This document shows, in pieces, positions 38,218 through 52,378 of a stretch of DNA of 52,378 bases (its first letter is position 1; every line of letters begins with the position of its first letter). A program made the translations under genes and the position numbers. Origin of the DNA: Clostridiales bacterium (lineage in GTDB: Bacteria > Bacillota > Clostridia > Oscillospirales > Oscillospiraceae); assembly GCA_021202515.1 (NCBI GenBank), contig JAJQCW010000063.1:1-52378 (forward strand), in the 5' to 3' direction. The notes under the pieces were generated by a model. It saw nothing but the letters and a program-made list of their open reading frames with translations, was not told the origin of the DNA and searched no databases.

Positions 38218-38352
38218 TGGTTATGTCGAATTATGTCAAGTCTTTGCAGTGGATTTCAATCCACGAGGCCCGCATGGGCCTCGACCGGACAGCCGCAGGA
38301 CCATCAAGGCACTACGGCTATTTCAATCCACGAGGCCCGCATGGGCCTCGAC

Positions 38353-38387
38353 GGCTGTGGGAGACGCTGCTGGAATCCCACAGAGTG
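38353..38387 (-). repeat. Duplicated, self-complementary spacer (copy 1)
   Basis: The spacer contains CTGTGGGA and its complement TCCCACAG about a 13-nt loop (GACGCTGCTGGAA). The same spacer recurs at 42532-42565, one base shorter at one end. Confidence 0.9.
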
Positions 38388-41300
38388 ATTTCAATCCACG
38401 AGGCCCGCATGGGCCTCGACGGCTGGTGGGTGCTGTGGGGTTCGGCGGGTGACAATTTCAATCCACGAGGCCCGCATGGGCCTCGACCGGCACCCCGGCC
38501 AGAGGCCGCGACGTAACCGGATTTCAATCCACGAGGCCCGCATGGGCCTCGACGCGGATTGGAGGCACGTAATGGCTGGAATCAAAATCATTTCAATCCA
38601 CGAGGCCCGCATGGGCCTCGACGCGACATTACCACATGCCGTAGCCTGTGGTAATGTATTTCAATCCACGAGGCCCGCATGGGCCTCGACGCGGCCAAAA
38701 GCGCCCGGCCAGACGGCCGCACGGGATTTCAATCCACGAGGCCCGCATGGGCCTCGACAATACTGGAATATCGTTTCACTAGGAAGCGACCGATTTCAAT
38801 CCACGAGGCCCGCATGGGCCTCGACCGGGGGAGTTTTTGGCGATGATGTGGGCGTTTTTGATTTCAATCCACGAGGCCCGCATGGGCCTCGACTGCCGAC
38901 CTCCAGATTCGCGGCATTTGCGGCGGTATTTCAATCCACGAGGCCCGCATGGGCCTCGACCAGACAGGGGCAATGTGCTGATTACGCCACCGTTGATTTC
39001 AATCCACGAGGCCCGCATGGGCCTCGACCAGATAACAAGGCTGACCCCGCAAAGGGGAAAAAATTTCAATCCACGAGGCCCGCATGGGCCTCGACGATAC
39101 CGGATATGATTTGCCGGGGTTGGAAGTCCGAATTTCAATCCACGAGGCCCGCATGGGCCTCGACGTGAAGTATTATAATAAATTCAGAAAGATGAACAGA
39201 TTTCAATCCACGAGGCCCGCATGGGCCTCGACGCTGAGATTGGTCCCCTCCGTCTTTGCCAAGCAGATTTCAATCCACGAGGCCCGCATGGGCCTCGACG
39301 TTGCCAAGTGACATGCCTCGGCGGTTGCCACCGATTTCAATCCACGAGGCCCGCATGGGCCTCGACGATGATACAGAAGCGGCGCAGAAATGGCGGGTGC
39401 ATATTTCAATCCACGAGGCCCGCATGGGCCTCGACCACCGCCATTCATTGGCGGGACGGCTACGGCATGATTTCAATCCACGAGGCCCGCATGGGCCTCG
39501 ACATCTCGTTCCGTATCGCCTGTGACCGCAACTACAAATTTCAATCCACGAGGCCCGCATGGGCCTCGACAGGGCCGTTTTGTGGAAAAGCCCCTGCCGC
39601 ATGATGATTTCAATCCACGAGGCCCGCATGGGCCTCGACGCACACATCTCCTTTTTGATTTCGTGCAACGCACGATTTCAATCCACGAGGCCCGCATGGG
39701 CCTCGACCTATGGCAGAATCCTCCTACAGTGGACGGCTCGATATTTCAATCCACGAGGCCCGCATGGGCCTCGACTGTGGCTTGAATGTAATTGCACTCT
39801 GGTACAGTTCACATTTCAATCCACGAGGCCCGCATGGGCCTCGACTCCACCTTTCCAGAGCCGAAGCCCGGGAAAGGGCATTTCAATCCACGAGGCCCGC
39901 ATGGGCCTCGACTTAAGGCTACCAGCAAAACCGCCGCCTCTCACTCCATTTCAATCCACGAGGCCCGCATGGGCCTCGACATTTTTGTAAAACCATGCCG
40001 CCACAAAGAAAAAAATTTCAATCCACGAGGCCCGCATGGGCCTCGACTCTGAACGCCGACGGCATCCCCGACATCGAACACATTTCAATCCACGAGGCCC
40101 GCATGGGCCTCGACGATGGAATCCAGCAGTGTATCGGACGACACGAAATTTCAATCCACGAGGCCCGCATGGGCCTCGACCTACGGCGACCTGCCGTATA
40201 GCGTCCTTAGCACCATTTCAATCCACGAGGCCCGCATGGGCCTCGACCAACATCGTTTCCGAGCCGGAGAACCCCGCCAAAATTTCAATCCACGAGGCCC
40301 GCATGGGCCTCGACGCCAACAACGACGGGCAAAACCTGTGGATTGACGATTTCAATCCACGAGGCCCGCATGGGCCTCGACCTGGAAAAATTCCTTGCCT
40401 GGTATTTCGGCTGCACTATTTCAATCCACGAGGCCCGCATGGGCCTCGACTTCGGCAAGGTAGTCTACGGCCAGCGGGAATTGATTTCAATCCACGAGGC
40501 CCGCATGGGCCTCGACGTTTCCACCCTGACCTTTACCGCTGCGACCTAAGATTTCAATCCACGAGGCCCGCATGGGCCTCGACCCACTGCATTTCAAGTG
40601 GCCACGCCCGGTAAGCATTTCAATCCACGAGGCCCGCATGGGCCTCGACGCTGCCGGTGATGGTGCCGTTGTCCAGGTCGATATTTCAATCCACGAGGCC
40701 CGCATGGGCCTCGACTTGTGCCTATCGGCGGGGACGGCACCAACCAGCAATTTCAATCCACGAGGCCCGCATGGGCCTCGACAATATCTGACAAAAAACT
40801 CACCACCAAAAAAAGATTTCAATCCACGAGGCCCGCATGGGCCTCGACTAGCAAAGAACCTCACCGGAATAAAAAAAATACTATTTCAATCCACGAGGCC
40901 CGCATGGGCCTCGACAATTATATTTTTTCTGGTTCTGGCCTTAGCTGGATTATTTCAATCCACGAGGCCCGCATGGGCCTCGACGTGGCGATTGTTTTTG
41001 AAGTCACCAATACACTTGTATTTCAATCCACGAGGCCCGCATGGGCCTCGACTATTTCCTTTGCCACCCAGGTAGGGGCGCCGACATTTCAATCCACGAG
41101 GCCCGCATGGGCCTCGACAACACAGACGCCAACACACAAACACAGATACACATTTCAATCCACGAGGCCCGCATGGGCCTCGACGTGTGGCTGCGCAAAA
41201 ACATCACGCAGGTGGACAGCATTTCAATCCACGAGGCCCGCATGGGCCTCGACCCGGCTGGCCGCTGTCACCTCCGACAGTCAAGCCAAAATTTCAATCC

Positions 41301-42531
41301 ACGAGGCCCGCATGGGCCTCGACTGGGAACCTGGTAGCCGGGACTATCACCTCCAATATTTCAATCCACGAGGCCCGCATGGGCCTCGACGTGTGTCAAT
41401 TTCCCCGGAGCTGCCCTGCACCAGGATTTCAATCCACGAGGCCCGCATGGGCCTCGACTCGGTTCCGTTGATTTCTGCAAATTCCAAAAACTATTTCAAT
41501 CCACGAGGCCCGCATGGGCCTCGACAATACCGGGACAAATTGCAGGAACTGCTACGGTATTTCAATCCACGAGGCCCGCATGGGCCTCGACCATTCCAAA
41601 AAACGTCCTCTGGGATCTTTAGAATATTTCAATCCACGAGGCCCGCATGGGCCTCGACTGGCCATGCAGCCGCAAAAATAGGCAGCATACAGATTTCAAT
41701 CCACGAGGCCCGCATGGGCCTCGACTCCACCATGCCCATCTCCAGGACGGCATAGCAGGAATTTCAATCCACGAGGCCCGCATGGGCCTCGACCGTTTGG
41801 CGGTTTAGCCCTCTTTCACCTCAAAGATTTCAATCCACGAGGCCCGCATGGGCCTCGACGTACCCCAAAATAGGGACGCGGGGGGGGTAGACAAATTTCA
41901 ATCCACGAGGCCCGCATGGGCCTCGACTACGTCCGGGTACAAATCGGGGAGGATGCAAGCGATTTCAATCCACGAGGCCCGCATGGGCCTCGACCCACAC
42001 CTGCCGCGCCAAAAATATCAACGCCGATATTTCAATCCACGAGGCCCGCATGGGCCTCGACAATACTGTGCCATAGGCCAATACATGGCCGAAAAATTTC
42101 AATCCACGAGGCCCGCATGGGCCTCGACGGTGCCCCCAAAAAAACAAAGGAGGTAACGAAATATTTCAATCCACGAGGCCCGCATGGGCCTCGACATATA
42201 GGCACAACGGAAACACAAGAAAACAAAACGATTTCAATCCACGAGGCCCGCATGGGCCTCGACGGATATGAAACGTATCGCTGGGGATGGCCTGGTCATT
42301 TCAATCCACGAGGCCCGCATGGGCCTCGACTGACCTTGACCTTGCCCACCGTGACCGATGGGCGAATTTCAATCCACGAGGCCCGCATGGGCCTCGACTA
42401 AGTTGCTCGTCTGTATCTCCAAATACAAAGACATTTCAATCCACGAGGCCCGCATGGGCCTCGACATCATCCTCACCGCCGCAAATGCCGCGAATCTGAT
42501 TTCAATCCACGAGGCCCGCATGGGCCTCGAC

Positions 42532-42565
42532 GCTGTGGGAGACGCTGCTGGAATCCCACAGAGTG
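42532..42565 (-). repeat. Duplicated, self-complementary spacer (copy 2)
   Basis: It is identical to 38354-38387. Copies are 4.2 kb apart and have different neighbours, so it is not a tandem duplication of a block. Confidence 0.9.
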
Positions 42566-43069
42566 ATTTCAATCCACGAGGCCCGCATGGGCCTCGACGG
42601 TTCCTCAGCGGAGGCAGGGGGTTCCACTTCTGATTTCAATCCACGAGGCCCGCATGGGCCTCGACGCCTGAAAATGAAAAGCGGAAATTTCGGGCTGGAA
42701 ATTTCAATCCACGAGGCCCGCATGGGCCTCGACGGTGTCGGAAAAATCAATCTCCAGCAGATACGCCTTATTTCAATCCACGAGGCCCGCATGGGCCTCG
42801 ACTGATGGGTTATGTTCACATTTCCCGGGGGAAAGATTTCAATCCACGAGGCCCGCATGGGCCTCGACGGAGAAACTGGCCAGACTGCCGGAGGACTGTG
42901 AGATTTCAATCCACGAGGCCCGCATGGGCCTCGACAAAAATCTGACAAGGAGGGCAAAACGGCATGAACATTTCAATCCACGAGGCCCGCATGGGCCTCG
43001 ACACACGCCGGGGAGTATGCAGATCAACAGGTGTTGATTTCAATCCACGAGGCCCGCATGGGCCTCGAC

Positions 43070-43271: not shown

Positions 43272-43562
43272 TTATAGAATCAATGGCTCGTCTACTTGCA
43301 GCCCGCGTTGCACCCCAAAGTGTTCTACCTTGCCTTTGTAGTGATTACCCAAAGAGTAGAAACGCAGACTGTCCTTTTCTTCATCTATTTCCTTCAGCAG
43401 CAGGTGCTTCAGCTTTGTGTACTGTGCGGCATCCACCTGGCACTCAAAGACGGAATTTTGCACCCGTATGCCATAATTGACGCATTGCCTGGCGACCCGT
43501 CTCAGGCGGCGCGCCCCTGCCGCGTCCGTGATGTTGATGTCGTATGTGATCAGGACAAGCAA
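43272..43562 (-). CDS. cas2: CRISPR-associated endonuclease Cas2
   Basis: The 96-residue protein starts LVLITYDINITDAAGARRLR, the conserved Cas2 ferredoxin fold with the first-strand aspartate (D8), and has the typical FYSLG ending. With Cas1 it forms the integrase that adds spacers at the leader. The start is TTG 43562, 6 bp after GAGGTGG. It follows cas1 by 9 bp and is the last gene of the operon, next to the leader. Confidence 0.96.
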   Translation of the reverse strand: MLVLITYDINITDAAGARRLRRVARQCVNYGIRVQNSVFECQVDAAQYTKLKHLLLKEIDEEKDSLRFYSLGNHYKGKVEHFGVQRGLQVDEPLIL

Positions 43563-43571
43563 TTCACCACC

Positions 43572-44603
43572 TCATTTCCACAAAAACGGCGGGTAAGCGT
43601 CCAAATCGCCCCGCAAATGGCGGGCCAACAGCATGGCCTGCGCGTAGGCCACCATGCCCCACTGAATTTTTTCCTTGAGATAAGGGTGCATCAGTGTCTC
43701 CTGTTTGCGCTTTTGCCAGGCGGCTAAAAAGCGCTTTCTAGCCTCGTCCGTCAGAAAGACGGCTCCATTTTCCTTTTTTGCAAAATCCTTTTCTGTGAAA
43801 ACACCGAGATTGATTTGCGTTACAACAAATCTGTCCGCCAAAGGCGCCCGCAGCTCTTCCAGCAGGTCCAGAGACAGCGAGGACCGCCCTGGGCGCACGG
43901 TGTGGAGGAATCCCACCGCCGGGTCCAAACCAACAGACTCCAACGCGCCCGTGATCTCATTCCCCAGCAGGGTATACGCGAACGAGAGCATTGCGTTGAC
44001 CGGGTCCAGCGGTGGCCGCCGGTTCCTTCCGTCAAAAGTGAACACATCTTCATTCCGCAGGATCATTTGCGGGAACGCGCCGAAATACGCTTTCGCGGCG
44101 ATTCCTTCAATTCCCATCAGCTCGCTCCGGGTCTCCGCTCCCTCTAGGCTGGCGAGGGATTGCAGCATCTGCTCAATGGCCCCGCCCAGTGCCTCCTGAT
44201 CGACCCGCATGGCGTGGTCGCGCTTGACCCGTTCCAGGCACCACCTGCCGTTGTAGATTTTACCCAGCAGGAAAGATTTTGCAATGTCCAGGGATTGGCG
44301 TTCGTCCATCGCTCTGCAATACTGCGTCTCCCGCAGCAGCACATTTCCGCGCACCGGCCCGTTGATTCGGGCCAGAAAGCGACCATGCTGGGTCAGGAAA
44401 CAAAGGCCGACCCCTCTTTCCGCACAGGCCCCCATCAGGGCGGGGCTGACCCCCTTGTACCCAAAACAGACGATCCCCTCCAGATTGTGCAGCGGAACAC
44501 GGCCCAGCTCGTGCTGCTCCTGCAAAAGGACGACAGTCTCTCCGTCCAGAGATAAATACCCCTTCGGCGTTGTCACATATAATGTGTTTAGCAGCTTCTT
44601 CAT
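43572..44603 (-). CDS. cas1: CRISPR-associated integrase Cas1 (type I-C)
   Basis: The 343-residue protein has the normal Cas1 layout: N-terminal beta domain (NTLYVTTPKGYLSLDGETVV), then a helical catalytic domain with LMGIEGIAAKAYFGAF (metal-binding E), RRPPLDPVNAMLSFAYTLL and a late H/D pair (LHTVRPGRSSLSLDL). It integrates new spacers. ATG 44603 overlaps the cas4 stop by 4 bp and follows GAGGAGG. A longer reading upstream is out of phase with the cas4 gene and not used. Confidence 0.96.
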   Translation of the reverse strand: MKKLLNTLYVTTPKGYLSLDGETVVLLQEQHELGRVPLHNLEGIVCFGYKGVSPALMGACAERGVGLCFLTQHGRFLARINGPVRGNVLLRETQYCRAMDERQSLDIAKSFLLGKIYNGRWCLERVKRDHAMRVDQEALGGAIEQMLQSLASLEGAETRSELMGIEGIAAKAYFGAFPQMILRNEDVFTFDGRNRRPPLDPVNAMLSFAYTLLGNEITGALESVGLDPAVGFLHTVRPGRSSLSLDLLEELRAPLADRFVVTQINLGVFTEKDFAKKENGAVFLTDEARKRFLAAWQKRKQETLMHPYLKEKIQWGMVAYAQAMLLARHLRGDLDAYPPFLWK

Positions 44604-45268
44604 GTGCCGTCCTCCTCGTGGAACGCCCGGCGGACATACTCCGAAGCCGAAACCTGCTTGCCTAGCCGGGGCTGGCAGATCTCCATAAGAGAGCAGCTTT
44701 TGCAGGCTTTCCCCATTTTTGCCTTCGGCGTATAGCCCCTTGCCATCAGTCGGTGCATCTCCGCTGCGGAATCCGTTACCTTTTGCCGCAGTTCCTCCGT
44801 CAGGGGGACCCGCTGCCGCCGTTTTGTTTTGCCGTAGTACAGCGCCCCTTCGGGGATGTCGGTCACAAACATTTCCTCCAGGCACATGGCCTGAGCGCAT
44901 AGCTGCAATGCATCCGCGCCCTGGCCATCTGGCCGCCCCAGCTTGTACTCCACCGGATACAGCCGCCAGCGGCCGCTCCGCCCCTGGATGGGGACGCCCA
45001 CCTCGTCCCTGTACAGCTCCACCATATCGCACACGCCGGTGAGTTTCAGCGCCTGGGAGCGGACGGGCATCCCCCGGGACAGCAACACGGCTCCCCGCGC
45101 CTCTGTGAAGCTGTTGTCATGGACCCGTTCGTGCATATAATGTCCCTCCAGGGTCCGTGTGTTTTCCTCCCACTGCTGCTCGACATGGACCAACGCCCAC
45201 CGCCTGCGGCAAAACTGGAAATGTTTCAGCCCGGACAGCATCAGGAAATCTGAATCATCATTCGCCAT
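44600..45268 (-). CDS. cas4: CRISPR-associated Cas4
   Basis: The 222-residue protein has the RecB-type nuclease and Fe-S features: C20 (FQFCRRR), the C-terminal cysteine trio CKSCSLMEIC, and the active-site YPVEYKLGR. It trims prespacers and selects the PAM for Cas1-2. It overlaps cas7 by 11 bp and cas1 by 4 bp, so these genes are tightly coupled. Confidence 0.95.
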   Translation of the reverse strand: MANDDSDFLMLSGLKHFQFCRRRWALVHVEQQWEENTRTLEGHYMHERVHDNSFTEARGAVLLSRGMPVRSQALKLTGVCDMVELYRDEVGVPIQGRSGRWRLYPVEYKLGRPDGQGADALQLCAQAMCLEEMFVTDIPEGALYYGKTKRRQRVPLTEELRQKVTDSAAEMHRLMARGYTPKAKMGKACKSCSLMEICQPRLGKQVSASEYVRRAFHEEDGT

Positions 45269-46172
45269 CCAGGACCTCCGGCGTCAGGCCCGGCAAATCC
45301 TCGGTACGCACAGTCACGTTCCCATCTGCATCGCAGGAGACGCGGAGGGTGCGGTGTACCTTGGCGGAGGAATACTGTCCGTTGGCGCAGTTGTGCTGCC
45401 ACCAGACCAGCTTGATGACCTCCATGCTCCCGGCGGGGCGGGCGGCGGATTCGTCGTTGCGGAAGAGCGTGCGCAGGGCCTCTTTGAGCAGGGCGGCGTC
45501 CGCATCGCTGAATCCGGTTTTTTCCGCCAACTGCACGCTGATGCCGCCGTAGGTCACATAAACGCCGAAGTCTACCCGGTGCTTTGTACCCATGGTGTCC
45601 TTTCCCTTTTTGTCAGGGTCGTCTCCCGTTTCCAGGTTTACAGACTTAGTGATCTGGGTGCTGGTGATGTCCACCGGGTTCAGGCTGAATGCCGATTGAA
45701 TGCTGACGGGGCCGCGTACACCGATGGAGACAGCGTCTGTTTCGCTCCCCTCGTCCTTTTTCCCCGCTTTCTTGAAGGCAAATACCTGTCCAAAGGCCCG
45801 GACGTCGTACCAGGTGGCGCAGGCCAGCTTTGCGTAGTCCTCTTTGGTCTTTCCCGGCTTTTGGTCCTTGCCCTTTTTCCCTTTGGGGGCCTGCATTTGT
45901 TTCAGACAGTCTGCCAGGGCGGGCTCTCCCTCTGCCCGGTCCCGCAGAGAGCGGAATTCGTCGGTGCGGCGCTCATCTGACTGGACGAAAATGCGTTCTC
46001 CCTCATCCATCAGCCGGTTGCGGAGCTTGCGCTTGAGGCAGACATCGGAGACCTCACCCAGCCCCGCCAGAGTGGAACGGGGGCGGTTCCCGCCCAGGGG
46101 GTCGCCGTTGGGATTCGCGTTGCGCACGGTAAAGACCAGTGCGAAGTCGATTTTGTTTGTCAGAGTACTCAT
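45258..46172 (-). CDS. cas7: Cas7 (Csd2), type I-C backbone subunit
   Basis: The 304-residue protein begins KIDFALVFTVRNANPNGDPL, the Cas7c/Csd2 signature, and has RRM-like strands to the end. Several copies polymerise along the crRNA. A lysine-rich insert (PKGKKGKDQKPGK, about 97-110) lies in the thumb-like region. Of three in-frame ATGs, 46172 fits best, 9 nt after AAGGAGA. It lies 5 bp after cas8c. Confidence 0.96.
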   Translation of the reverse strand: MSTLTNKIDFALVFTVRNANPNGDPLGGNRPRSTLAGLGEVSDVCLKRKLRNRLMDEGERIFVQSDERRTDEFRSLRDRAEGEPALADCLKQMQAPKGKKGKDQKPGKTKEDYAKLACATWYDVRAFGQVFAFKKAGKKDEGSETDAVSIGVRGPVSIQSAFSLNPVDITSTQITKSVNLETGDDPDKKGKDTMGTKHRVDFGVYVTYGGISVQLAEKTGFSDADAALLKEALRTLFRNDESAARPAGSMEVIKLVWWQHNCANGQYSSAKVHRTLRVSCDADGNVTVRTEDLPGLTPEVLDGE

Positions 46173-46177
46173 AATCA

Positions 46178-48856
46178 TCATTCTCCTTTTCTATTTCGTT
46201 CCGCATAGTAACCATGCAGATAGCTGCTGTTAAGGGGAGCGTTGGTATCCCAACCATTCTGTGAAAGCTGATCTTCCAACTGTGCCAACAGGACGCTGGC
46301 CGCTGTGCGCTCCGCTCCATACCGCAGGTAGGGCTGGAGCTTGACTTTCAGATATGCCCAGGTAGCCGCTGGTTGACGGGCAAAGGCCGCCATATAGCGC
46401 AGTGCATTGGTGGCGCGCTGCTCTACGTCTTCCGGTACACCGCCTGCCCGGATGAGCAGCATCCGTCGCTCCAGCCATTCCGATGCACCCAGCATCCGGC
46501 CATACCAGAGGCTCCGCAGGTTTCCAGTGTCCTGTGGCCAAGGCTGTGGATACCAGCAGTACTGGGTTTTCTGGTAGAAGGTGCGGAGCATCCCGTAATA
46601 GCTGTGGAGGTAGCTGCTGTCCAGCGGCGCGGGTGATTCCCGGTCCGGCTGGGAAAACTGCGCTTCCACTTTGCCAATCAAAGACTGGTAATAACCGGCC
46701 TTGTCCCCCAGCTTTTCCAGATAGGGAAGCAGCTTGTCGTGCAGATGGCCCCAGCTCTCATAGGGCCTTGCGGAAAATGTTGGCATCATCTGCATGGCGT
46801 TGGTCTTGCCAAGCCGTTCACCGTCGCTGGCGTCCAACTCGACCCGGTCTGCAATGGCCAAAAGACAGCCGTAAAGCTGGGAGCGGCTGGTCGGCACCTC
46901 ATATAAAGCTGGTTCCTTTGTTTCTTCCGGTTCGTTTCCATCCTTGTCCTGTTTTGTGAACCACGCCTGTCGCTGGCTGGAGTACCCCTGTAAAAATACC
47001 ATAGAGAGCGGGCCTTTCTCGAGCCTTTCCTTCTCCAAAAACAGACCTTCGATCTCCTCAAAGGCGATTTGATACCGCTTCGCGTCCTCTCCCGCTGTTG
47101 AAAAGACCGGAATCAGCTTTTCGTGGATCATCTGCCAGGTCTCAAAGGGGCGCTGGGCAAACCTTTGTGTCAGGCGAACGGCATTCGTGGGGAGGTTTGA
47201 CTTCAGATTCAAAACCTCTTCTTCCATCCTGTCTGCAACGGCCAGCAATCTGCCGTACAGGTAGTCCCGGTTCCGGGAGGCGATTTGCAGTTCCGGCGGA
47301 AACACCTCTTCGCGCCCGCGCTTTTGGAAGCAGGAGATCATCGCGCAGGCGGTGTTGACGCTGCGCGTCCATGCGTACCGGTCCCATTTTGCCTCTCTCC
47401 CGCTGGTAAAGGACAGGGGAGTGCAGCACCGATAAAAGGCACTGTTCACCGTGCTCAGGGACAGCGGTTGCTTGTCTACAATGCACATCATCAACTGAGA
47501 CATCAGCTGGCGCATGAGCTTTGTCTGAGACTTGTCACATCTCAAATCCTGTTTCGCCAGGCTCACAGCATCAGCGCCCATGACGGCTTCTGCAATTTCC
47601 TGCGAAGTAGGTGTTATGATTTCCGTGACTTTTTTCTTTCGGTTATAACCCCACCAGCAACAGTACCGATACCAGTCCGCCAGGCGCTCAACATAATCAT
47701 TGCCGGGACATTCCTGGTAGTAGGTGACGGACATTCTGCCGTCTGTGGCCGCCTCCAGTCCCAAAATCTCCACGAAGTTGACCCGGTCTGCGTCAAAGCC
47801 ATCTGCAAAGCCATCCAAGACGGACTGGTACCCAAGCGCCGCCTGGTTCACCGCCTTGGCGTATCCGTCCAGCGTGTTAATGGCCGGCTTGTCGGTTTCA
47901 TCCTCGTATTCCTCTTCCTCGTATTCCACCCCTACGGGGAGGGCATTCCCTTCCGTGGCGGGCCGCATGACCGCGCCGTTGGTGTTCCAGACCACCCAGG
48001 TCATGCCGTATTTGTTGATACCCTGGCGGGCAGTCAGCCACGCAAGGGCATTATGGGCACGGATCATTGCGCTGGTGCTGATACAGGCCGCACTGTGGTC
48101 TTCAACAAATCGGCCTTTGTATTGAAATCGGTAAGCAGCGTCCTTTGCGGAAATCAGCTTTGCGTTCCCTTGTACCTTGGGATAATTTGTCGTGGCAGGA
48201 AGAACCTTGCCCTCTACATAGCACAGCTTTTCTTCTCCCGGCAGATGTTGCATATAATATCGGCTCCAGCTCTCCTTCACATCATCCCGCTGCCAGAGGT
48301 CATCCGAGGTCATGTCCTGGGACTGGACGGAAAAGCAGACCATCGCCTTCCAGTCTGTGCCTTCCCCCTGCTGATTTTCCGGGTCTTTGTAATAGTTCAC
48401 CTTTAGATTCGGCTGCGTATTCAGGTCGGAGAGCAGGGTGTGCCGGTCCAGATAGGCATAAACCGCCCGCAGGCAGGCCGGTGCGTCCGGCTGCTCACAC
48501 CACGCTTTTAGCCGTTCCATGTAGGCGTCAAACCGCCCACGATTGCTCTCGTCTTCGTAGACCAGATAATTCAGCCCTTCAGTCAGGGGATAGGGCGCCC
48601 CATTGCTGCCGGTTCGACTTTCTGCCTGAGGCGTACTGGGGATCTCCAGCACTGGCGACTGTCCCTTTTTGTCGTTTTCGTTCCGCATCTCCTTTGGTTC
48701 ATCCGCAGAGACAAACTGCCCATCCATTGTCAGAACGATGTGGTATTTTACGCTTTTGCGGACGAACCCCACAGGAACCAGAGGCGGTTTTTCCCCGCTC
48801 TGGTCGCTTATGATTCCCACGTCATACGCTTCGCATAGCTTCTGCATCCATCCCAT
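46178..48856 (-). CDS. cas8c: Cas8c (Csd1) large subunit with triplicated C-terminal domain
   Basis: The 892-residue protein is the type I-C large subunit, whose role is PAM recognition and holding target DNA. Residues 1-~520 match the Csd1 core (for example SAMIRAHNALAWLTARQGIN). The normal family ends near residue 635 after one helical C-terminal domain ending FLQGYSSQRQAWFTKQ. Here two further copies follow (see 46571-46885 and 46187-46516). The other I-C systems make this C-terminal part also as a separate small subunit, Cas11c. An acidic tract (EYEEEEYEDE, about 311-320) is also present. The gene abuts cas5c directly and precedes cas7 by 5 bp. Confidence 0.95.
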   Translation of the reverse strand: MGWMQKLCEAYDVGIISDQSGEKPPLVPVGFVRKSVKYHIVLTMDGQFVSADEPKEMRNENDKKGQSPVLEIPSTPQAESRTGSNGAPYPLTEGLNYLVYEDESNRGRFDAYMERLKAWCEQPDAPACLRAVYAYLDRHTLLSDLNTQPNLKVNYYKDPENQQGEGTDWKAMVCFSVQSQDMTSDDLWQRDDVKESWSRYYMQHLPGEEKLCYVEGKVLPATTNYPKVQGNAKLISAKDAAYRFQYKGRFVEDHSAACISTSAMIRAHNALAWLTARQGINKYGMTWVVWNTNGAVMRPATEGNALPVGVEYEEEEYEDETDKPAINTLDGYAKAVNQAALGYQSVLDGFADGFDADRVNFVEILGLEAATDGRMSVTYYQECPGNDYVERLADWYRYCCWWGYNRKKKVTEIITPTSQEIAEAVMGADAVSLAKQDLRCDKSQTKLMRQLMSQLMMCIVDKQPLSLSTVNSAFYRCCTPLSFTSGREAKWDRYAWTRSVNTACAMISCFQKRGREEVFPPELQIASRNRDYLYGRLLAVADRMEEEVLNLKSNLPTNAVRLTQRFAQRPFETWQMIHEKLIPVFSTAGEDAKRYQIAFEEIEGLFLEKERLEKGPLSMVFLQGYSSQRQAWFTKQDKDGNEPEETKEPALYEVPTSRSQLYGCLLAIADRVELDASDGERLGKTNAMQMMPTFSARPYESWGHLHDKLLPYLEKLGDKAGYYQSLIGKVEAQFSQPDRESPAPLDSSYLHSYYGMLRTFYQKTQYCWYPQPWPQDTGNLRSLWYGRMLGASEWLERRMLLIRAGGVPEDVEQRATNALRYMAAFARQPAATWAYLKVKLQPYLRYGAERTAASVLLAQLEDQLSQNGWDTNAPLNSSYLHGYYAERNRKGE
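46187..46516 (-). repeat. Cas8c C-terminal domain, copy C
   Basis: Residues 781-890: WYGRMLGASEWLER, TNALRYMAAFARQPAATW, KVKLQPYL and PLNSSYLHGYYAERN. It is the final part of the protein, 123-131 residues after copy B depending on the motif. Confidence 0.85.
46571..46885 (-). repeat. Cas8c C-terminal domain, copy B
   Basis: Residues 658-762: LYGCLLAIADRVEL, TNAMQMMPTFSARPYESW, HDKLLPYL and PLDSSYLHSYYGMLR. Its motif spacing equals copy A exactly: 128 residues further on. Confidence 0.85.
46961..47272 (-). repeat. Cas8c C-terminal domain, copy A
   Basis: Residues 529-632: LYGRLLAVADRMEE, TNAVRLTQRFAQRPFETW, HEKLIPVF and PLSMVFLQGYSSQRQ. This is where the normal Csd1 protein ends. Confidence 0.85.
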
Positions 48857-49609
48857 TTACACGTCCCCCTCTATTTCAGCCAGTTCCTGCCGAATGGAAT
48901 CCTCCTCCAGCCCGGAGAAGTTCCCCAGCTCTTTGCTGAACTGCCTGGCCTGCACCGGGCGCACAGTCTGCTTCATCTCCGCAGGGATGTCCCAGGGCGC
49001 GGGGAATCGGATGACGCCGTCCGACATCTTCGCGTTCCAGAACCGGGTAGCCAATACGCCTTCCCCCGTCTCGTCCGCATAGTCGAAGCCATGAAACATG
49101 ACGCCAAAGCTCAGTTCCCCGTAATGGTCGTAAAAGCCTTCACCGCTGCCGAAAACGCACGGTTCCACATAGCCCTGACACTCCCGTGTGCCCAGGAAAA
49201 TGTCCCGGCGACCGCCTTTTTCCACCATGCGTTTGGCGATGTTGTGGTGCTTGTTCTCGTTGAAATCCTGTCCCAAGTCTGCGCGGCGGTTTTCGTTGAA
49301 AATAAAGTGGGCGCGCACCTGATAGGACACGTCAGCCAGGTAATTGTAAACCGACAGGGAGTTCCCGGGTTCGTTATAGCTGATGGGGCGGATGCTTTTG
49401 GATTCTGTGCGGATGCGTTTCATAATGCGCACCTCATCCACCACCCAGAGGATGGAGGGTTTCCAGTAGATGCTCTCTGTGATGCCTTTCAGTGCCTGGT
49501 AGGTGGGGACCATGTAGCTGCATTTTTCGCCGCCCATGCGGGTGACGGGGTCGCTGAACAGCGCGTAACGGCCCTGTAGGTTGTACTCAATTTGGTTTCT
49601 CATTTTCAA
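48857..49609 (-). CDS. cas5: Cas5c, crRNA-processing subunit
   Basis: The 250-residue protein has the Cas5c pattern: [20 protein letters not shown] near the N-terminus and the catalytic region [12 protein letters not shown] with K120 and H121. In I-C systems this enzyme cuts pre-crRNA because Cas6 is absent, then caps the 5' handle. I place the start at TTG 49609, 9 bp after GGAGG; the next ATG (49603) is 15 bp away. It directly precedes cas8c. Confidence 0.95.
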
Positions 49610-49627: not shown

Positions 49628-52006
49628 CTATGCCTTAGAGTGTAAGCAATTCCATTTCCTCAGAAGTTGTCCTGACCCCGCCAGAGGCGTTGTAATACTC
49701 CGCCCGCAGCGCCACCACGCCGGTTTCCCCCAGAGGGCGCAGCGCCCCTCCCGCGCCAGCCGGTCATAAATCTGGTCAAACAGGTTGACGCTGTACTGCT
49801 GGGCCTGCTTCAGGCAGGTAATTTCTTCCTGCATGGTGTGGCTGCTTTCCAGAGTTTGCATCAGCTCCGCGCCTTTGCCATAGGGGACCAGCACGGGTTT
49901 GGTCTGCTGGTCGATGACATGAAACGCCTTGCCTGCGGTGCGGAAACTCTGGAGAAGCTGTTCACTGATTTTTGGCAGTGCCTTTCCAGTGTTTGCACAG
50001 GTTTGGTTGTCCGAAAGCATTTTGACCAGGTTGGTTTTCCAATCTGGGTATGGATAGTTTTCCTCATTTTTTGACTGGCTGTCGCTTCTCTCTTTTTTGA
50101 AGTAGGCGTCTACGATTTTCAGACTGTCCAGGTGGTAGGAAAGCGTTCCGTTTCCCAGCAGACTTTGGGTGAGTTCCTTGCCCTTCTGAATGTCCGGCAG
50201 GCTTCCGAGCTTTTCCTCCGCCAAGTTCCACAGATAGACCTGCCCCAGCGCCCACTCAAAGTTCCGGTTACAGCGCCCTGCTGCCTGAATGATGCTGGGG
50301 ATCCCGGCGAGGCTGCGGACGACCACGGGGAAACTGACGTTGATGCCGGCCTCGATCAATGCGGTCGAAACGCAACAGACCAGCTTGCGCTCTTTCAGCC
50401 ACGCCTTGACCCAGCGCAAAATCTCCTTCCGGTGCATGGGGCACATGAGGGTGCTGAGATGGACACAAAGAACCTGGTCCTTCCTGCACATTTTCGCGCG
50501 CTCCTGCAATTCCTCGCCCGAAAGTCCCTGATGTACTTTTACCAGTTTGAACCCCGCCGACTCCAGCCGCTGGGAGACCCTCTCATAGACGTGCCAGGCG
50601 GCAGGTTTTGTGTTGACGATGGTGAGGACGGAGCGATTTCCGCACACCATCGCTGCAATGTCATCGGCGGCCTCCTGGTAGGTGCGCTGTTGCAACTGCG
50701 GCAGGTACTCCACTCGTTTTAGCTGTTGATATAACGCGTCCACGTCTGGAACCAGCTCTTCGGCCTGTAATCTTAAATTCGGCTGGGTAGCGGTGCAGAG
50801 CAGCACGGTACAGTGGCAATATCGCACCAGAAACTTGACAGCCTCCCGGAACAGTCCGCGGCACTTTTTGGGCAGCGCCTGAATTTCGTCAAAAATCAGG
50901 ACCGAATGGGTGAGACGGTGCATCCGCCGCGCCTTGCTGTTTCCGTCCCGAAACAGCGCGTCCAGAAATTGCACTAAACTGGTCAAAATGATGTCGCTGT
51001 CCCAGCGCTCGGTCAGCCTGCGATGGTGTTCGTCCTCCTTTTCATCCTCCAGCACCACGTTGGAATGGTGTTCCAGGATAGAGGGGTAATCGTGCAATGC
51101 GTCCCGAATGTCCTTCGCGTTCTGGTCGAGGATGGTGTTCATGGGAATGATGTAAAAAATGCGCTGCATCCCGTTCGCCCGGGCCTGGGTCAGGGCGAAA
51201 CGCAGGCTGGAATAGGTTTTTCCTCCTCCAGTGGGAACTGACAGGGTATAAATGCCAGGCCTGGCGCCTCCTGCGTCCTTGCACCACTCAGATACCTCCC
51301 ATCGGGTCTCAGCCAGTGCGCCCTGCCTGGGAAAGCGCTCAAGATATTGCTCCAGCTCTGTCAAGAGGCCGCCCCAATCGGGCAGCGCTTTCTGTGACGC
51401 TGCAAAGGGATCCACATCGTTCTCAAAGCAGGCGGAATCCCATCTGTCCGCGTCCACAAGGATGCTCAGCAGCAGCCTGGCCAGCATCCCCCAGGGGAAG
51501 GGGCGGTTCCCTAGTCCAAATGCGTCCAGCTCCCGGCAGGCGGCGCAAAACAACTCGTCCAGTTCCTGCGCAGATGCGACTTCCGTATAGAAATTTTCCG
51601 TTGCCTCCTGGTAATACGCTTCTGATTGCTCCTGCAAATCGTCTAAAAAGGGGGATTCTCCGGCTTTATTGAGACAGTCCTGTAGCCCGGCATGATGGCC
51701 GGCAATACAGAGAGAAATCAGTTGGGCGGTACGCCGCTTCTTCACGTTTGCTTCCGCATCTCCCCAGCGCCGCCAGGCGTAGAGCGCCCCCAGTGCCGCA
51801 TGGGTCGGGTGTTTGCGTCCAATTTCAAATAGGTAATCCTGCCAGTCCTGCGTCCCTTTTCCAAAATCATGAAGAAGCCCGATCAACTTTGCCAACATTT
51901 CCAGTCCCATGGCTTTGGCTGTCAAAAAACAAAGGTATGATACATTTCTGCAATGCTGCCCCCAGTCTTGCGTTTTTTCGTCTGACTGTTGTTTGTGTGC
52001 GTACAT
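49628..52006 (-). CDS. cas3: Cas3 helicase-nuclease (3' end frameshifted)
   Basis: The 792-residue protein has an N-terminal HD nuclease (LHDFGKG, H46-D47; HH at 104-105) and an SF2 helicase with Walker A PTGGGKT (258-264) and DEIQ (373-376). Cascade recruits it to degrade target DNA. ATG 52006 is 7 bp after GGAGG. After residue ~754 the reading shifts: adding one G in GGGG (49745-49748 on the plus strand) restores a Cas3-like tail, VVALRAEYYNASGG...MELLTL, ending at 49635. The present 38-residue tail (RCALWGK...HSKA) looks unrelated. It is the first gene of the operon. Confidence 0.93.
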   Translation of the reverse strand: MYAHKQQSDEKTQDWGQHCRNVSYLCFLTAKAMGLEMLAKLIGLLHDFGKGTQDWQDYLFEIGRKHPTHAALGALYAWRRWGDAEANVKKRRTAQLISLCIAGHHAGLQDCLNKAGESPFLDDLQEQSEAYYQEATENFYTEVASAQELDELFCAACRELDAFGLGNRPFPWGMLARLLLSILVDADRWDSACFENDVDPFAASQKALPDWGGLLTELEQYLERFPRQGALAETRWEVSEWCKDAGGARPGIYTLSVPTGGGKTYSSLRFALTQARANGMQRIFYIIPMNTILDQNAKDIRDALHDYPSILEHHSNVVLEDEKEDEHHRRLTERWDSDIILTSLVQFLDALFRDGNSKARRMHRLTHSVLIFDEIQALPKKCRGLFREAVKFLVRYCHCTVLLCTATQPNLRLQAEELVPDVDALYQQLKRVEYLPQLQQRTYQEAADDIAAMVCGNRSVLTIVNTKPAAWHVYERVSQRLESAGFKLVKVHQGLSGEELQERAKMCRKDQVLCVHLSTLMCPMHRKEILRWVKAWLKERKLVCCVSTALIEAGINVSFPVVVRSLAGIPSIIQAAGRCNRNFEWALGQVYLWNLAEEKLGSLPDIQKGKELTQSLLGNGTLSYHLDSLKIVDAYFKKERSDSQSKNEENYPYPDWKTNLVKMLSDNQTCANTGKALPKISEQLLQSFRTAGKAFHVIDQQTKPVLVPYGKGAELMQTLESSHTMQEEITCLKQAQQYSVNLFDQIYDRLAREGRCALWGKPAWWRCGRSITTPLAGSGQLLRKWNCLHSKA

Positions 52007-52024
52007 ACACATCCCTCCATTTTA

Positions 52025-52144: not shown

Positions 52145-52378
52145 TCAATATACGAGACGTAACACACCCAAGAGGGAGCACCGAGGCCTAGCTCTGCAAT
52201 CTTGCAACCAAAACAGATTTGTGTACAACTCAAATCGCCGCTGGTCATAAACCGCCCTTCCCTTCATCCGTTTGACGATGTTGTGGTGTTTTTCCTCGTT
52301 GTGATAGCCGACAAGCTCCGGGCGGTTTTTGATCCATTCAAAGTGGGCGCGCACCTGATGGCGGCAGTTTTTCAGGTA
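52145..52378 (-). pseudogene. Relic of a second cas5c gene (cut by window edge)
   Basis: The frame entering from the right edge reads YLKNCRHQVRAHFEW and then EEKHHNIVKRM, clearly the catalytic region of Cas5c (compare [15 protein letters not shown] and [12 protein letters not shown] in the intact gene). After KRMKG the similarity is lost and the frame ends at 52145. It is therefore truncated or decayed at its 3' side. The upstream part is outside the window. It is not a copy of the intact gene: many residues differ. Confidence 0.75.

Follow-up and report, generated by a model that had tools for sequence, protein, structure and literature searches.

The stretch of DNA analysed here, 52,378 nucleotides (nt) of contig JAJQCW010000063.1 from a Clostridiales bacterium of the family Oscillospiraceae (assembly GCA_021202515.1), is referred to as the window. 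It carries a CRISPR-Cas operon with the gene order cas3-cas5-cas8-cas7-cas4-cas1-cas2, followed by a CRISPR array (Table 1). The cas8 gene encodes a large subunit Cas8c (Csd1) of 892 amino acids (aa), the last ~365 residues of which are filled by three repeats, A, B, and C, of a C-terminal domain resembling the small subunit Cas11c. The full-length protein matched TIGR01863 with 305.8 bits (cut-off 218.65) and the Cas8c profile of PADLOC with 427 bits. Together with its PF09709 match, these hits identify it as the signature large subunit of subtype I-C and, as a Csd2-type Cas7 and a Cas5c are also encoded in an operon of the I-C gene set, the system belongs to this subtype by gene content. The cas3 product additionally matched TIGR01587 with 90 bits, which is below the cut-off of 102.45 for this profile.

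Table 1. Features of the I-C locus and of its cas8c gene. Positions are those of the window; domain and linker limits follow the hidden Markov model (HMM).
Feature	Position	Strand	Remarks
cas3, HD nuclease-helicase	49628..52012	-	TIGR01596 89.1 bits, over cut-off; Pfam DEAD, Cas3-like C
cas5c	48857..49609	-	TIGR01876 237.7 bits, over cut-off
cas8c/csd1, large subunit with three C-terminal small-subunit domains	46178..48856	-	892 aa; PF09709 E 1.1e-110, 371.4 bits
Internal Shine-Dalgarno relic (putative)	47303..47311	-	GAAGAGGTG, residues 516-518; aligned to AAGGAGGTG of a two-copy relative
Ancestral Cas11c start codon (putative)	47294..47296	-	now CCG (Pro521); alignment to relatives
Copy A, Cas8c C-terminal domain	46937..47281	-	residues 526-640, HMM domain limits
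Linker A-B	46901..46936	-	residues 641-652, between HMM domain limits
Copy B, Cas11c-like	46559..46900	-	residues 653-766, HMM limits
Linker B-C	46529..46558	-	residues 767-776, between HMM domain limits
Copy C, Cas11c-like	46187..46528	-	residues 777-890, HMM limits
cas7 (Csd2)	45258..46181	-	TIGR02589 316.3 bits, over cut-off
cas4	44600..45268	-	TIGR00372 122.4 bits; PF01930
cas1	43572..44594	-	PF01867 E 3.6e-102
cas2	43272..43562	-	PF09827 E 2.5e-25
CRISPR array	38253..43069	- (assigned from operon)	72 repeats (counted by exact 22-mer), repeat ~33 nt

The repeats were aligned with each other by the Smith-Waterman algorithm. The scores of A/B, A/C, and B/C were 174, 100, and 134, compared with means of ~27 for shuffled sequences (z values of 32, 15, and 23, respectively), and none of them was reached by any of 1000 shuffles. 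Meanwhile, the alignments of A, B, and C with the N-terminal part of Cas8c were not significant, the scores being reached by 305, 211, and 867 of 1000 shuffles. Three stretches of the full-length protein match the Pfam family Cas_Csd1 (PF09709). When taken alone, copy A (residues 505-640) corresponds to the profile positions 435-559 of 559 (64.4 bits), copy B to the positions 445-553 (55.0 bits), and copy C to the positions 456-556 (35.4 bits). All three exceed the curated cut-off of 27 bits, and each covers the last part of the profile. These results confirmed the three tandem C-terminal blocks described by the initial annotation at 46178-47272; this interval does cover the blocks, except that, by the HMM limits, copy A begins a few residues earlier, at nt 47281. 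In phmmer comparisons with Cas8c/Cas11c of D. vulgaris, copy A was the sole copy aligned, and only weakly (best E 0.0078). Within the window protein, the identities are 31% for A/B, 28% for A/C, and 34% for B/C.

In Pfam, NCBIfam, and PADLOC alike, the length of the Csd1/Cas8c profile matched (525-588 positions) corresponds to a protein with a single copy, and the frames with one Csd1 match are mostly 560-690 aa long, with some reaching 858 aa. The length of about 635 aa that had been calculated for the window protein after subtraction of copies B and C fits these frames. The linkers measured in seven tandem proteins, with domain limits slightly narrower than the HMM limits, have 12-19 residues. 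The predicted structures of copies B and C both have the fold of the solved I-C Cas11c, and the profile of copy C was aligned with that of the single-copy domain by hhalign with a probability of 99.6.

For the survey of related genomes, a Cas8c was regarded as tandem when at least two Csd1 C-terminal matches were found in one frame. Seven overlapping samples were used, five of which include the window genome. Tandem Cas8c was found in 3 of 32 genomes of the genus (23 with any Csd1), in 2 of 300 of the family (64 with any Csd1), and in 1 of 87 of the family of genome G589 (21 with any Csd1). The order sample contained two three-copy and two two-copy forms among 394 genomes (90 with any Csd1), the class sample one of each among 341 (54), and the phylum sample two three-copy forms among 378 (99), while two two-copy forms were present among the 71 genomes (20) of the genus of G521. 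In addition, 84,980 species genomes were scanned with two peptide patterns from the B-C alignment, by which distant forms would be missed. Eight of the 32 stretches obtained were confirmed as eight loci, all of the three-copy type; three were genes already found, and the five new ones include those of [Clostridium] symbiosum ATCC 14940 and Lactonifactor longoviformis DSM 17459. This brings the distinct three-copy genes, which belong to some bacteria of the gut, to ten, with frames open over 879-919 aa; nine fall in one clade, C. symbiosum and L. longoviformis among them, and one is that of G1343. Two come from records titled as culture-collection strains. No relative of B-C was found in the viral contigs and phages searched. 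Six plasmid records, in which a place of ~105-110 codons annotated as cas8c was matched by two query pieces, are read as single-copy.

We also examined the internal translation start from which Cas11c would be produced. An internal site was defined as ATG, GTG, or TTG among the 12 codons preceding the domain, together with a Shine-Dalgarno duplex energy of -8 or lower. Three duplicate genes and one truncated gene were left out of the count, as were duplicates and open reading frames below 480 aa in an earlier set; L154 was counted as single-copy although its domain match is split in two. Such a site was present in 111 of 113 single-copy genes (median -12.0), mostly with the start 4-5 codons before the domain (91/113), and the two exceptions were L155 (-7.7) and L150 (-5.3). 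The background in intervals of equal width in the same genes was 91/2917 (3.1%). Both two-copy genes have the site, before copy A only. In the three-copy genes, it was found before copy A in none of ten (best values 0 to -7.8; -3.7 in the window gene), with their own background being 3/276, and none of the ten has it before copies B or C. Fisher's test for the presence of the site against the copy number gives p = 4e-13, a value that ignores relatedness, the independent losses being one or two. At the position of the start codon in the alignment, the two-copy genes and their nearest single-copy relative L100 have GTG. In the three-copy genes, the codon at this position encodes Pro (CCG/CCA) in eight of the nine clade members, Asn (AAC) in G589, and Ile (ATT) in G1343. 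The canonical internal start is lost in the three-copy genes.

The two-copy Cas8c proteins (G389 and G521; L095 and L096) are encoded in an operon of the order cas3-5-8-7-4-1-2. Like the window protein, they carry tandem small-subunit domains on a I-C Cas8c, but they alone among the tandem forms keep the internal start, from which a two-domain Cas11 of ~254 aa is predicted. Their copies are 53-54% identical to each other, and alignments and trees point to an independent duplication. In the tree of N-terminal parts (74 rows), the two-copy pair is sister to the single-copy L100 (support 100), nine three-copy proteins are united in a single clade (support 100), and G1343 groups with the single-copy L136 and L121 (95).

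In the tree of the domains, the copies of the nine-protein clade group by position (A 98/86, B 99/93, C 94/76), so this triplication probably took place before G589 separated from the other members of the clade. G589 is 38-40% identical to the others both in B-C and in the whole protein. The mean identity between species at the same position is 60.6% for A, 66.4% for B, and 55.4% for C, compared with 29-37% between different copies. Conservation is highest in the middle copy and lowest in the end copy, which would be expected if B had contact with a neighbour on either side. The three copies of G1343 are 65-73% identical and group together (99/74), so its triplication is probably separate, with homogenisation by concerted evolution as a possible alternative. 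On the same grounds, one origin of all three-copy proteins is not favoured, yet a single clade of all ten was not rejected by the approximately unbiased test in the N-terminal tree (p = 0.179).

In comparisons with three relatives, the ratio of nonsynonymous to synonymous substitution rates (dN/dS) of A, B, and C was 0.03-0.29, and dS exceeded 1 in some of these cases; with C. symbiosum, a ratio could be computed for copy C only (0.095). An assembly artefact or a decaying recent duplication might be thought of, as the draft genome from which the window comes is in 81 contigs and the cas3 of another three-copy genome, G017, looks split. This explanation has next to no probability in our estimate and was rejected: the alignments of the repeats, the ten distinct genes with open frames, the divergence of the window copies to 28-34% identity, and dN/dS values below 0.3 wherever computed all speak against it. 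As a separate observation, copies B and C have a lower dS between the window and G017 (L022), at 0.31, than the N-terminal part (0.72) or copy A (1.35), a pattern that suggests a mosaic gene produced by recombination.

The spacers of the window array are 33-37 nt long (mean 34.4), while the mean lengths beside eight single-copy relatives are 33.7-34.9 nt; no array was found at three further single-copy loci examined. As the spacer length is unchanged, a changed number of Cas7 slots is presumably not to be expected. Another source of Cas11 in the window genome was also considered and rejected, as no Csd1 match was found outside the three-copy gene in this draft. A remnant of a second cas5 lies at the contig end upstream of cas3 (window 52265-52378, minus strand; 54% identity over 39 aa to residues 90-128), and a similar one is present in G005 (L060:14186-14372). 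In G005, a second, divergent, partial I-C set (L060:794-3475), consisting of cas3 fragments, cas7 (33%), cas4 and cas1 fragments, and cas2 (61%), lies beside the array of the three-copy system. This genome also has a second Cas8c (L070 and L021, G005:C54), which is single-copy, distant in the tree, and has an internal start (-9.1, ATG 8 codons before the domain). In G017 (L061:1003-8402), cas3 appears to be split across frames, although the three-copy cas8 frame is open; its cas4 matches over just 86 residues and is followed by a cas2-like stretch.

The Cascade of D. vulgaris is reported to have the composition Cas7(7)Cas8c(1)Cas5c(1)SSU(2), where SSU is the small subunit, corresponding to Cas8c residues 489-612 and made from an internal ribosome site; the SSUs, which extend the belly from the C-terminal domain of Cas8c, have been proposed to hold the non-target strand (PMC7684278). 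For I-B, I-C, and I-D systems, Cas11 is described as a separate product translated from within the gene of the large subunit in PMC11899642, where Tan et al. (2022) is cited for the finding that the I-C Cascade does not form without Cas11c. The number of domains, their fold, their position-specific conservation, and the lost start are most simply read together as follows: Cas8c of the window system supplies the whole I-C belly filament in cis as one polypeptide, and canonical internal translation has been abandoned. We estimate the probability of this reading at roughly three in four. Three domains in one chain equal the 1+2 make-up of the D. vulgaris Cascade, now as 1+1+1 in cis. Copy A would be the ordinary C-terminal domain of Cas8c, and copies B and C, each attached through a linker of ~10-16 residues, would replace the two separately translated Cas11c subunits. 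The single chain would tie three small-subunit domains to each Cas8 and would set the order A-B-C along the spine of CRISPR RNA and Cas7, and the fused belly would hold the displaced non-target strand, as proposed for Cas11c. With small subunits supplied in cis, the internal Shine-Dalgarno sequence and start codon could have decayed. The proposal of the initial annotation, a fusion of two small subunits to the large one in cis that matches the stoichiometry, is supported by the number of three, the Cas11c fold, the lost canonical start, and the unchanged spacers; the occupancy of the slots, like the stoichiometry, the binding of the non-target strand, and the absence of separate Cas11c, is what we infer.

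Several observations weigh against this reading. The Foldseek E-values of the B-C model are 0.035 or worse, with no match passing 0.001, though ranks 1-12 are all I-C proteins. The grouping of the C copies (94/76) is below the threshold of the tool and carries a long-branch warning. The losses of the start are few events, confined to one clade of nine and G1343. Moreover, if CTG, ATT, ATC, and ATA are allowed as starts, six of the ten three-copy genes have a site of -8 or lower before copy A, compared with backgrounds of 7/276 in these genes and 228/2917 in the single-copy ones. In the window, G005, L112, and C. symbiosum, the site is a CTG of about -9.6 that lies two codons beyond the former start and 12 nt from the purine stretch; the CTG of the window is residue 523 (-9.6) and follows GAGGTG. 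E. bolteae has a CTG site of -12.5, G1343 an ATT site of -8.5, and C. symbiosum a borderline GTG site of -7.8. The initial annotation had found no convincing internal ribosome site and had proposed that the start may not be needed; this is supported for canonical sites, and weak initiation at CTG or ATT is possible in six of the ten genes.

These sites speak for a mixed supply, in which the fused chain is used and some free small subunit is still made through weak starts (CTG523, GTG518) or by proteolysis of the linkers. CTG is a start codon of low efficiency. Where the CTG lies close to the former start, as in four of the genes, the purine stretch aligns with the old Shine-Dalgarno sequence and is read as its relic; in E. 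bolteae and G1343, some weak initiation may persist. All ten three-copy genes lack the canonical start, which nearly all single-copy ones retain, and copies B and C have no canonical site of their own. In Haloferax, replacement of the start Met of Cas11b by Ala within Cas8b is reported to have abolished Cas11b (PMC11899642). On balance, we consider a mixed supply unlikely.

A further explanation would give B and C, as additional domains, a different function, such as partner recruitment, an anti-CRISPR decoy, or a longer belly, with the normal slots being filled otherwise. It draws on the divergence of the copies to 28-34% identity and on the charge of copy B: its net charge is about zero (-1 to +1), compared with a mean of +3.6 for single-copy domains, which is also a point against the whole-belly reading. 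A strong strand-binding role of B is not favoured by this charge, and B may contact DNA more weakly than C or free Cas11c does. However, nothing else was found that could supply the slots, neither a second Csd1 match in the genome nor a canonical internal start, the spacer length is unchanged, and the loss of the start accompanies three copies, not two. An extra role is therefore very improbable in our judgement.

Returning to the supply of the whole belly in cis, we regard as probable, with somewhat less confidence than the reading itself, the joint proposal of a natural three-protein Cascade (Cas5, Cas7, and Cas8) with a covalent Cas8-Cas11-Cas11, slot-specialised, non-interchangeable domains, and an obligate full belly. 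This would have arisen at least twice at the needed domain number, each time with the canonical start lost, and the two-copy form would be a partly fused state in another lineage.

The I-C Cascade of D. vulgaris (PDB 7KHA, 8DEJ, and others) shares with the window system cas5, cas7, and cas8, the C-terminal small-subunit domain of Cas8c and, on the reading proposed, three such domains per complex (1+2). It differs in that two of the three are separate, identical Cas11c proteins, whereas the window system has three non-identical domains in one chain and has lost the canonical site. The I-C Cascade/Cas3 of Neisseria lactamica (8G9S-8G9U) has, in the C-domain of Cas8 and in Cas11, the fold predicted for the window copies, but its Cas11 chains are separate. 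Fused small subunits and Cas7-Cas11 fusions are described in type III by the 2025 classification (PMC12669027). The Cas7-11 proteins of types III-E and III-I and the III-D fusions listed there likewise unite once-separate effector subunits, including Cas11, in one chain; they are, however, Cas7 fusions with a single Cas11 domain, not repeated Cas11 domains on a type I large subunit. The main text of that classification contains neither 'Cas8c' nor 'duplicat' (PMC12669027), and no description of tandem Cas11 domains on Cas8c was found in searches of an open-licence library, which covers few subscription papers. We rate the covalent fusion of small subunits together with the lost canonical internal start, by which the system departs from the studied I-C members, as a new variant of I-C.

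The finding is of high interest because the form is conserved, has probably arisen more than once, occurs in culture-collection strains, and can be tested directly. On sequence evidence alone, the 1+2 stoichiometry is matched both by the number of domains and by the lost canonical start. Internal bacterial starts are not known to function in eukaryotic cells, and Cas11 is added as an extra part to I-C tools used there. A three-domain Cas8 may need no added Cas11 in such tools. As the domains would be fixed and distinct, each slot could be mutated alone, which is impossible with identical Cas11c in both slots. Finally, the joined subunits would make it possible to test directly what maintains the gene-within-gene design elsewhere, be it the ratio of the subunits, their turnover, or spare Cas11.

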